This document shows positions 1,727 through 6,353 of a DNA stretch of 33,521 nt, piece by piece. Both the position numbers and the translations under genes were made by a program. Position 1 is the first letter of the stretch. Every line of letters starts with the position of its first letter. The stretch is taken from the NCBI GenBank assembly GCA_026391415.1, contig JAPLEL010000048.1, positions 1 to 33,521 of the forward strand, read 5' to 3'. Below the pieces are notes generated by a model. The model did not search any database. It was not told where the DNA came from and saw only the letters and a list, made by a program, of their open reading frames with translations. Source of the DNA: Bacteroidota bacterium. GTDB lineage: Bacteria > Bacteroidota > Bacteroidia > Chitinophagales > Chitinophagaceae.

Positions 1727-1750
1727 TAATTGACTATATCCGTTAATTAT

Positions 1751-2359
1751 ATGTTATTAGAAGTCCATCCATCTAATCCCAATCCCCGCTACTTGAAAAT
1801 GATAGTGGATTGTTTATTATCAGGTGGCGTGATTATATATCCTACTGATACGATTTATGGGTTAGGCTGCGATATTTTTCAGCACAAAGCCATTGAAAGA
1901 ATTGCAAAAATTAAACAAGTAGATCCAGCCAAAGCACAACTCAGTTTTGTTTGTTATGATTTGAGTGATTTAAGTAAGTACACAAAAAGTATTAGCACAC
2001 CATTATATAGAATGCTAAAAGATTATTTACCTGGTGCCTTTACTTTTATTTTACCTGCTAGTAAAGAAGTGCCAAAAATATTGCAGAGTAAAAAAAGCAC
2101 CATAGGATTAAGAATTCCAGACAATATGATTGCTAGAAGTATTGTACACGAATTAGGTCATCCTATTTTATCTGCTTCCTTACCCGGTGAAATGGTGGAA
2201 GAATACACCGATCCAGAATTGATTTACGAAAATTTTAAAAACCTTGTTGATATTGTTGTAGACGGAGGTATTGGTGGCATGGTTCCGTCTACCATTGTTG
2301 ACTGCACCAAAGACAATTATGAATTAATAAGAGAAGGTGCAGGAAAATGGGAAGAATAA
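1751..2359 (+). CDS. tsaC: L-threonylcarbamoyladenylate synthase
   Basis: Sua5/YciO/YrdC-family enzyme of 202 aa. It makes threonylcarbamoyl-AMP from threonine, bicarbonate and ATP for the t6A modification of tRNAs reading ANN codons. The family signature YPTDTIYGLGCDI sits at residues 30-42, followed by the RIAKIKQVDPAKAQLSF segment and RIPDNMIARSIVHELGHPIL near residue 140. The usual SANxSG is read as SASLPGE. ATG 1751 is chosen because it lies 18 nt behind a good promoter; an in-frame TTG at 1730 would overlap the start site of transcription. The C-terminal Sua5 domain is absent, so this is the short TsaC/YwlC form. It is monocistronic. Confidence 0.9.
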   Translation: MLLEVHPSNPNPRYLKMIVDCLLSGGVIIYPTDTIYGLGCDIFQHKAIERIAKIKQVDPAKAQLSFVCYDLSDLSKYTKSISTPLYRMLKDYLPGAFTFILPASKEVPKILQSKKSTIGLRIPDNMIARSIVHELGHPILSASLPGEMVEEYTDPELIYENFKNLVDIVVDGGIGGMVPSTIVDCTKDNYELIREGAGKWEE

Positions 2360-2394: not shown

Positions 2395-2433
2395 GTATAC
2401 ACAAATCGTCAAAAATTGACGATTTGTGTATAC
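2395..2433. repeat. perfect 18-bp inverted repeat, 3-nt loop
   Basis: GTATACACAAATCGTCAA at 2395-2412 is perfectly complementary to 2416-2433, with loop AAA. It lies between convergent tsaC and rnhB. Read on the minus strand it is followed by TTTTATTTT, so it can act as an rnhB terminator. On the plus strand its right arm contains the TTTG (2423-2426) of the promoter for the RNA at 2457, so it could equally be an operator. Confidence 0.85.
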
Positions 2434-2456: not shown

Positions 2457-2516
2457 ATATTTAATAACCGGGGGGGAATTAAATATTAAGTCTCGTAATA
2501 ACGAGGCTTTTTTTTG
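2457..2516 (+). ncRNA. candidate ~60-nt small RNA with seven-G loop
   Basis: Two hairpins back to back, with no protein-coding potential. Hairpin 1 pairs ATATTTAAT (2457-2465) with ATTAAATAT (2478-2486), a perfect 9-bp stem presenting the 12-nt loop AACCGGGGGGGA. Hairpin 2 pairs 2488-2496 with 2501-2509 (core CTCGT/ACGAG, loop AATA) and runs into eight Ts (2508-2515), an intrinsic terminator. A consensus promoter ends 5 nt upstream. Promoter, compact fold and terminator together make an independent transcript likely. The exposed G run suggests base-pairing to C-rich targets; that is inference. I do not recognise the family. Confidence 0.65.
2488..2516 (+). terminator. intrinsic terminator of the small RNA
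   Basis: A 9-bp stem 2488-2496/2501-2509 with one G-U pair and a 4-nt loop, merging into T8. It could also back up termination of tsaC. Confidence 0.8.
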
Positions 2517-2592: not shown

Positions 2593-3174
2593 CTATTTTG
2601 GCAAAATAGAAAAGCTTATTCTGTGGTATTTACACAAGCCTTTTTTTGCAATAGCCTCTCTGTGATCTAGGGTTCCATACCCTTTATTTTTTTCCCATTT
2701 GTACACAGGAAATTCTTGGTGAATTTTTTGCATATATGCATCTCGATGGGTTTTAGCTAGTATGCTTGCTGCTGCTATTGAACTATATTTTCCATCTCCT
2801 TTAATAATGCAATGGTGTGTCATTTTTTTATATGGGGTAAATCGGTTACCATCAATAAGCAATAAGGATGGTTTTGTTTTTAAAGCAGCAATAGCCAAAT
2901 GCATTGCTTTAAAGGACGCTTTTAAAATATTTATTTGATCTATTTCATTATTGTCAACACTTGCTACAGCCCAAGCAATAGCCGACTGTTCTATTATATC
3001 TTTAAGAATTAGTCTATTTTTTTCGCTTACTTTTTTACTATCATTCAATAATGGATGATAAAAATTATTGGGTAAAATAACCGCCGCCGCAAATACAGGC
3101 CCTGCATAACAACCCCTTCCAGCTTCATCACAGCCTGCTTCTATTAGTTTTGATTGATAAAATGGTGCTAACAT
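2593..3174 (-). CDS. rnhB: ribonuclease HII
   Basis: Endonuclease of 193 aa that removes ribonucleotides and RNA strands from RNA/DNA hybrids in the cytoplasm. The signature EAGCDEAGRGCYAGPV lies at residues 12-27 with catalytic D16/E17. D108 sits in LLIDGN and another acidic residue in KGDGKYSSIAAASILAKTHRD (125-145). ATG 3174 is preferred, giving MLAPFYQSKLIEAG, the usual short N-terminus in this phylum. An in-frame upstream ATG at 3216 would add 14 hydrophobic residues with no family counterpart. It is divergent from ctaA and convergent with tsaC. The palindrome at 2395-2433 may terminate it. Confidence 0.92.
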   Translation of the reverse strand: MLAPFYQSKLIEAGCDEAGRGCYAGPVFAAAVILPNNFYHPLLNDSKKVSEKNRLILKDIIEQSAIAWAVASVDNNEIDQINILKASFKAMHLAIAALKTKPSLLLIDGNRFTPYKKMTHHCIIKGDGKYSSIAAASILAKTHRDAYMQKIHQEFPVYKWEKNKGYGTLDHREAIAKKGLCKYHRISFSILPK

Positions 3175-3249
3175 GGTACTAAAAGTGAGAATTCTTATTA
3201 ATACTATCAAATTCATTTTACAAATGCAAGGCCCAATTTAGTATACTAG

Positions 3250-5303: not shown

Positions 5304-6353
5304 TTACCATTTTAACAGCGCAGAAGCCCATGTAAAGCCACTTCCAAAAGCAGCTAGGCAAACTAAATCTCCGTCTTTAATTTTTCCATCTTCCCAAGCT
5401 TCACAAAGTGCTATAGGAATAGACGCGGCAGTAGTGTTGCCATATTTTTGAATATTATTATAAACCTGATTGTCGTTTAATTTTAATTTTTGTTGTACAA
5501 ATTGTGCAATGCGCAAATTTGCCTGATGTGGAATTAACATATTAATATCAGCAGGGCTGTAACCGTTTTTGCTTAATGCTTCTACAATCACTTCTGGAAA
5601 TTTAACTACTGCTTTTTTAAATACAGATGGCCCATCCATAAAAGGAAAATTTTGATTCTTGTCAATCATTTCGTGGCTCATAAACATATCGCCAATAGGG
5701 GCGTCGTTATAGGCTGCTACAGGAGTTTCCATCCAATGGTTGGCATGTGTACCAGGATTGTATTGCGCTAAAATCTCTGCACTTTCTCCATCACTATGTA
5801 AATGCGTACTTAAAATTCCTTGTCCTTCTTTTTCGGTTGGCTGTAACACAACTGCTCCTGCACCATCTCCAAATATAACAGAAACGTTTCTGCCCCTTGT
5901 ACTATAGTCCATACCAAAACTGTGTTTTTCTGCTCCAATTACCAATATGTTTTTATACATGCCTGTTTTTATAAATTGATCTGCAACACTTAATGCATAT
6001 ACAAATCCACTGCACTGGTTACGCACATCTAATGCGCCAACCTCTTTCATCTTTAATGCGCGTTGCACCAATACGCCACATCCTGGAAAAAAATAATCGG
6101 GCGATAAAGTTGCAAACACTATAAAGTCTATGTCTTGTGCTGTAATACCTGCTCTTTCAATGGCAATTTTTGCAGCTTCTACACCCATGGTGGTAGTGGT
6201 TTCTTCTGTTCTTTTTGCTATCCTTCTTTCTTTAATACCTGTTCTTTCTTGTATCCAAGCATCATCCGTTTCCATGTATTCTTTTAAGTCGTTATTGGTA
6301 ACAACTCTTTCTGGCAGGTACTTGCCTATTCCGGCAATTTTACTAAGTGTCAT
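5304..6353 (-). CDS. fabH: beta-ketoacyl-ACP synthase III
   Basis: KAS III of 349 aa. It condenses acetyl- or branched acyl-CoA with malonyl-ACP to start fatty acid synthesis. The catalytic triad is readable: C114 in NQCSGF, H276 in IPHQAN and N306 in YGNTTAAS. GDGAGAVVL lies at 162-170. It is about 30 aa longer than E. coli FabH, with an insertion around residues 195-235 common in Bacteroidota homologues. The branched-chain fatty acids typical of the phylum suggest branched starter units (inference). It leads a probable two-gene unit with the lipid kinase 15 nt downstream. A near-consensus -7 box lies at 6380-6387 (minus). Confidence 0.93.
   Translation of the reverse strand: MTLSKIAGIGKYLPERVVTNNDLKEYMETDDAWIQERTGIKERRIAKRTEETTTTMGVEAAKIAIERAGITAQDIDFIVFATLSPDYFFPGCGVLVQRALKMKEVGALDVRNQCSGFVYALSVADQFIKTGMYKNILVIGAEKHSFGMDYSTRGRNVSVIFGDGAGAVVLQPTEKEGQGILSTHLHSDGESAEILAQYNPGTHANHWMETPVAAYNDAPIGDMFMSHEMIDKNQNFPFMDGPSVFKKAVVKFPEVIVEALSKNGYSPADINMLIPHQANLRIAQFVQQKLKLNDNQVYNNIQKYGNTTAASIPIALCEAWEDGKIKDGDLVCLAAFGSGFTWASALLKW

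Follow-up and report, generated by a model that had tools for sequence, protein, structure and literature searches.

Closest described systems

FasX and RNAIII are small RNAs (sRNAs) of Firmicutes whose genes adjoin those of a kinase and a LytTR-family regulator. The RNA described here, referred to as the G-loop RNA, has the same kind of neighbours in its usual carriers; it differs in that FasX and RNAIII are much longer RNAs from another phylum, and in that its own gene lies between those of the kinase and the regulator. The FasX model (RF02384) scored 20.6 bits, short of its gathering score, which is 100.

RepG of Helicobacter pylori targets a homopolymer in an mRNA leader and is encoded beside a response-regulator gene (PMC8295292). 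The G-loop RNA shares the response-regulator neighbour and a homopolymer-type loop that, as proposed here, would pair with a run of a single base in the leader of an mRNA. However, RepG reads a length-variable G repeat in the mRNA with its C/U-rich terminator loop, whereas here the Gs are in the first hairpin and nearly constant in length, and no sequence relation between the two RNAs was seen. GsrN of Caulobacter, too, recognises mRNA leaders through a 5′ loop made up of one type of base: its C-rich loop acts on the G-rich katG leader and enhances translation (PMC5869019). Relative to GsrN the polarity is reversed, and GsrN is an enhancer controlled by the general stress sigma factor, not by LytTR. 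In Bacteroides thetaiotaomicron, GibS and FopS pair with translation-initiation regions, including that of the SusC porin mRNA (PMC11697453), which is the kind of site at which the G-loop RNA is proposed to act; they do so with a single-stranded 5′ seed, and FopS belongs to a 14-member paralog family, whereas the G-loop RNA presents a loop and has a single copy in the genome studied. By analogy, its mode of action would be closest to that of RepG or GsrN, the bases being swapped, and its place beside a LytTR system is like that of FasX and RNAIII.

A search of Rfam 15 returned no match in the window at the gathering threshold, the best low scores being far below the cut-offs. Membership of a known RNA family is therefore rejected, in agreement with the initial annotation, which had recognised none.

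The locus in the window

The window (the whole stretch of 33,521 nucleotides that was analysed) comes from a genome of the GTDB genus Sediminibacterium (Chitinophagaceae). The features around the RNA gene are the following:

1730..2359, plus strand: Sua5/YciO-type gene, upstream context (ORF)
2395..2433, no strand assigned: perfect 18-bp inverted repeat that encloses the -33 box of the sRNA (sequence, terminator scan)
2423..2426, plus strand: -33 promoter box TTTG (sequence; consensus in PMC6847099)
2444..2451, plus strand: -7 promoter box TATATTTG (sequence; most relatives have a TAnnTTT-like box equally far from the hairpin)
2457..2486, plus strand: first stem-loop, 9-bp A+U stem and 12-nt loop AACCGGGGGGGA (fold, z-score, compensated changes)
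2463..2480, plus strand: 18-nt conserved core AATAACCGGGGGGGAATT (exact in about a dozen other genomes)
2488..2515, plus strand: intrinsic terminator, hairpin 2488-2509 and T8 2508-2515 (sequence, fold, terminator scan)
2593..3216, minus strand: RNase HII gene, convergent, context (ORF)

The two promoter boxes are 17 nt apart and both fit the TTTG / TAHHTTTG consensus, and the span 2423-2451 is a predicted Bacteroidota sigma-A-type promoter. When the -7 box is numbered as in F. johnsoniae, from T-12 to G-5 (PMC6847099), the predicted +1 falls at 2456 ± 1 and coincides with the start of the hairpin, whose arms (2457-2465 and 2478-2486) enclose the loop at 2466-2477. The two-hairpin fold has a z-score of -5.45, and none of 200 shuffled sequences folds as well. 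Every sequence feature that the initial annotation had described (the promoter, the stem-loop with its 12-nt loop, the T8 terminator and the convergent neighbours) is present. It had not noticed the inverted repeat at 2395-2433, which occupies the place of the direct repeats found in relatives and doubles as a terminator-like hairpin for minus-strand transcription from the RNase HII gene. The arms of this repeat (GTATACACAAATCGTCA.../...TTGACGATTTGTGTATAC) contain TACACAAATCG, which resembles the TTCACAAA repeat of the relatives, but inverted.

Upstream of Sua5, at about 1540-1655 on the plus strand, lies a second conserved non-coding element with a structured core followed by (A)GGGGTTACAAAC and an intrinsic terminator at 1623-1649. 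It stands before Sua5 in many Sediminibacterium loci, recurs at L013, L018-L020, L022, L026-L028, L112, L115, L117-L119, L121 and L123, has no Rfam match, and looks like either another sRNA or a terminator-controlled Sua5 leader. Two rmuC-like leaders (L224 in G096 and L229 in G166) contain GGTTTGTAACTCCCAAT, a 17-nt complement, with G-U pairs, of the AUUGGGGGUUACAAACC of this element (-26.8 and -23.5 kcal/mol, respectively); the complement was not found in the rmuC-like leader of G035.

Conservation and covariation of the hairpin

Among the matches listed, the core AATAACCGGGGGGGAATT is exact in at least four genomes (G061, G096, G097 and G121), with further exact copies in G035 and G063. Thirteen stretches came out of a scan of 84,980 species genomes: 12 lie in Bacteroidota and have the hairpin, and a single one, without it, is in Paenibacillus. 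Some of these 12 are the same genomes as those just named, and the total is about a dozen other Sediminibacterium genomes. A covariance model of the hairpin found matches in this genus only, among 399 genomes of the order and under strict filters that lose weak matches, and a wide distribution is rejected on that basis.

The stem varies by compensated changes (C-G to U-A, U-A to A-U and G-U to U-A, as well as A-U to G-C in G017). Its covariation score is 0.321 against 0.117 in shuffled alignments, no shuffle out of 500 reaches it and sliding the helix destroys the signal; because the shuffle control leaves relatedness in, the score is supportive and does not amount to a probability. Across the kinase-type loci, L115 and L121 included, the loop has a mean pairwise identity of 1.00 and the stem one of 0.81-0.92, compared with 0.78 for the -7 region and 0.43 for the spacer. 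The loop is invariant save for G6 in G094, one A inserted directly behind the G run of G166 and the degenerate loop of G154, so the earlier expectation that the G run would be prone to length change does not hold: nearly every copy has G7. The test of conservation on which the initial annotation had staked its reading was passed, since the -7 region, the stem, the G loop and the terminator downstream all recur at the loci of relatives. The conserved structure and accessible seed expected of a trans-acting base-pairing sRNA are both present, and the 18-nt core is likely the pairing (seed) region.

The two-component neighbourhood

The usual gene order in carriers is Sua5 - kinase - G-loop RNA - regulator - RNase HII, a LytTR two-component link that the first reading had overlooked. 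The kinase has His_kinase and Y_Y_Y domains (Y_Y_Y/LytS-type) and the regulator has Response_reg and LytTR domains. An ortholog of the regulator occurs in 13 of 147 genomes of the genus, and a fourteenth, G003, carries a 46% paralog only. Every covered kinase-regulator gap of the close orthologs (9/9: G035, G063, G096, G097, G121, G139, G155, G166 and G154) contains the hairpin, degenerate in G154; in G136 and G027 contig ends interrupt the gap, and hairpin complements were found on their other contigs. In the divergent G100 and G130 (regulator 67%; L136 and L137), the gap holds a different, long and perfect-looking hairpin with apex GTAATGGGGGGCATT and G6 instead of the G7 hairpin, and therefore the position and the G-run loop recur without alignable sequence.

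Behind the RNA promoter of relatives there are direct repeats, TTCACAAA-N13-TTCACAAA, with a 21-nt period and mismatches in some copies. LytTR sites described in the literature consist of 9-bp direct repeats, mostly with 12 bp between them, and lie about 10 bp upstream of the -35 box (PMC6193735); the spacing at the RNA equals the published one, and the repeats, lying upstream of the promoter, form a putative LytTR operator. The regulator may bind them and activate the RNA. Similar pairs precede other genes in G096, G166 and G121, as well as rmuC-like genes in G096, G166 and G035, and the regulator gene of G035 has a pair of its own between the terminator and its start. Because counts of such pairs show, in most genomes, only a slight excess over a reversed-pattern control, individual sites are tentative. 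LytTR-type repeats are also seen upstream of two truncated tRNA-like units (GGGGGGTTAGCTCAGTTGGCTAGAGC...) at L222 (G096) and L230 (G166); at L222 these units are followed by an apparently complete tRNA.

The RNA is encoded beside the kinase and the regulator at the kinase-type loci, but not in the window genome (G000), at L115 and L121 or in the S. salmoneum group. Between Sua5 and RNase HII of the window, L115 and L121, it is the sole recognised feature, the kinase and the regulator being absent. L115 and L121 retain the direct repeats; G000 lacks the pair and has the inverted repeat together with the complete -33/-7 promoter. No ortholog of the regulator was found elsewhere in G000 (assembly 91% complete), and in the closest relatives examined (L116 and L135 from G139; RNase HII 93%) kinase, regulator and repeats are all present. 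Compensated changes in the stem beside an unchanged loop suggest that selection probably acts on the RNA even where the regulator is missing; and since the two-component genes and the operator repeats are gone from the locus and a full promoter is present, it is probably made constitutively in the window species.

Candidate targets

The best candidate comes from the S. salmoneum group (G061, G094 and G017), where a hairpin with the same loop, inside a longer stem and followed by T6 on the same strand, is found at a different locus that lacks the two-component genes. About 2.2 kb separate it from the start of a gene whose 179-aa product carries a type IX secretion tail (Por_Secre_tail); a kelch-like gene and a DUF2721 gene (annotated in G061) lie between them. 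The start region of the Por_Secre_tail gene is CCCCCCCGGTTATGAAA, and in CCCCCCCGGUUAUG a perfect complement of 13 nt extends into the AUG: CCCCCCCGGTTAT is the perfect complement of AUAACCGGGGGGG and covers the first two bases of the start codon. The duplex predicted for the G7 loop has an energy of -28.6 to -28.8 kcal/mol, and the match of G094 is shorter because its own loop is G6. The 17-nt start site is identical in the three genomes (17/17), while the flanks of G017 match those of the other two at 38-39 of 50 positions upstream and 38 of 55 downstream (69-78% identical). By the author's rough estimate from base composition, the start site shared by the three genomes is not near chance level.

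The window genome gave no leader match for CCCCCGGTTA, CCCCGGTTA or TTCCCCCC, nor for the 9-nt CCCCGGUUA; among the matches listed, the complements searched for fall there either in the RNA gene or on the antisense strand of coding sequences. The earlier proposal that the RNA acts on C-rich mRNA sites is supported in the S. salmoneum group by the start-codon complement, but not in the genome for which it was made.

Other carriers offer single 10-12-nt leader matches that are near, or not far from, chance: in G121 an outer-membrane-type protein (CCCCCGGTTATT), and in G096 a TonB receptor (CCCCGGTTATT, 45 nt before the ATG) and a PAS kinase (CCCCCGGTTA, behind repeats). An 11-nt leader match across a dozen genomes is about what chance would give, again by a rough base-composition estimate. 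Several candidates were rejected: a target shared by the kinase-type clade through TTCCCCCC, as the matches are mostly antisense to coding sequence; CCCCGGTTATTAATATTTAA, common to G063, G096, G097 and G154, which marks where a coding sequence ends (NPGY-stop); CCCCCGGTTAATAGCACG, which among the matches listed is antisense to a pantothenate-kinase-like coding sequence; C runs adjoining the kinase-type loci, which are not conserved as leaders; and the C5 run of the rmuC-like leader of G096, lost in G166 and G035. A cluster of C7-C10 tracts with A/T runs between them (TTCCCCCCC...AAAAAAA, repeated) lies on the minus strand of L217 (G035:C89, around 5550-5755).

Proposed mechanism and alternatives

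Judged by its sequence features, the locus appears to encode a genuine small regulatory RNA of the freshwater bacterium Sediminibacterium that had not been catalogued before. The reading preferred here, which we consider somewhat better than evenly supported, is that of a stand-alone, LytTR-controlled, trans-acting sRNA of about 60 nt whose G loop pairs with C-rich initiation regions. In most carriers the regulator would probably switch the RNA on through the two TTCACAAA repeats, whereas in the window species, with kinase and regulator missing at the locus, synthesis would probably be constitutive. The first hairpin would display the invariant loop, the second serving as terminator, and AACCGGGGGGGA would pair with C-rich stretches in or near translation-initiation regions, the secreted protein being the best candidate so far. 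Such pairing may block initiation and repress translation. In Bacteroidota it is the structure of the mRNA near the start codon, and not Shine-Dalgarno pairing, that tunes initiation (PMC6847099), and for this reason covering the AUG should be effective.

Clearly less probable, though ahead of the other alternatives, is a real RNA whose invariant G loop binds a protein or serves as a sponge (for example, for an RRM-type RNA-binding protein of Bacteroidota), with mRNA pairing incidental. RRM-type proteins bind sRNAs in Bacteroides (PMC11697453), no leader target was found in the window genome, and the loop is invariant across species whose candidate targets differ between clades, none being common to them, which is more conservation than shifting targets would demand. 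This explanation accounts poorly for the 13-nt start-codon complement conserved near the RNA in three genomes.

It is unlikely that the hairpins form a cis-acting leader, that is, a terminator-attenuator ahead of the response-regulator gene with the G hairpin as sensor. At the kinase-type loci the terminator does precede the start of the regulator gene by some 35-150 nt, in the same orientation; an attenuator, however, should always precede a co-directional regulated gene, and in G000, L115 and L121 the RNA persists without one, the next gene being the convergent RNase HII. The hairpin of the S. salmoneum group sits elsewhere, and in G035 a separate repeat pair stands between the terminator and the start of the regulator gene. 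Since it stayed where kinase and regulator are absent, the RNA is probably more than a regulator leader; it has a predicted promoter and a terminator of its own, independent of a coding gene, as expected of a trans-acting sRNA.

Similar G runs in repeat-like palindromes elsewhere could suggest a DNA element or a plain terminator devoid of RNA function (a repeat, the end of an insertion element or chance). This is very improbable given the 18-nt identity in about a dozen genomes, the covarying stem and the -7 box at a fixed distance. The RNA is single-copy in the window genome, where the other G-run matches are pantothenate-kinase-like codons (ATTAACCGGGGGGGATAT) or palindromic ends (CCGGGGGGTATTTTTACCCCC), and a multi-copy family is rejected, as is an element of phage or virus, for which no match was found. 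Least credible of all is pairing of the G run with the anti-Shine-Dalgarno end of 16S rRNA to act on ribosomes, because, even if the ribosomes of the phylum retain that sequence though the mRNAs lack its partner (PMC6847099) and the G run could pair with CCUCC, it would need neither the conservation of the flanking AUAACC...AAU nor an exact CCCCCCCGGUUAU complement.

Significance

Few Bacteroidota sRNAs have known partners, and the literature search found none with a known partner in Sediminibacterium. The homopolymer-loop sRNAs compared here have C-rich loops that read G-rich mRNAs, whereas the G-loop RNA displays the Gs instead. It offers a testable regulator, the LytTR protein, and a testable target, the exact 13-nt start-codon complement, and the species that keep the RNA though the regulator is absent from the locus provide a natural experiment. 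Tentatively, and with less assurance than the preferred reading itself carries, the RNA may represent a new class of sRNA in a phylum with little use of Shine-Dalgarno pairing: a LytTR-switched, G7-loop antisense RNA that would shut off mRNAs of secreted or surface proteins at C-rich start sites, that would sometimes be linked to its target in an RNA-target cassette (S. salmoneum group), and that in some species may have outlived its two-component system and gained a constitutive promoter.
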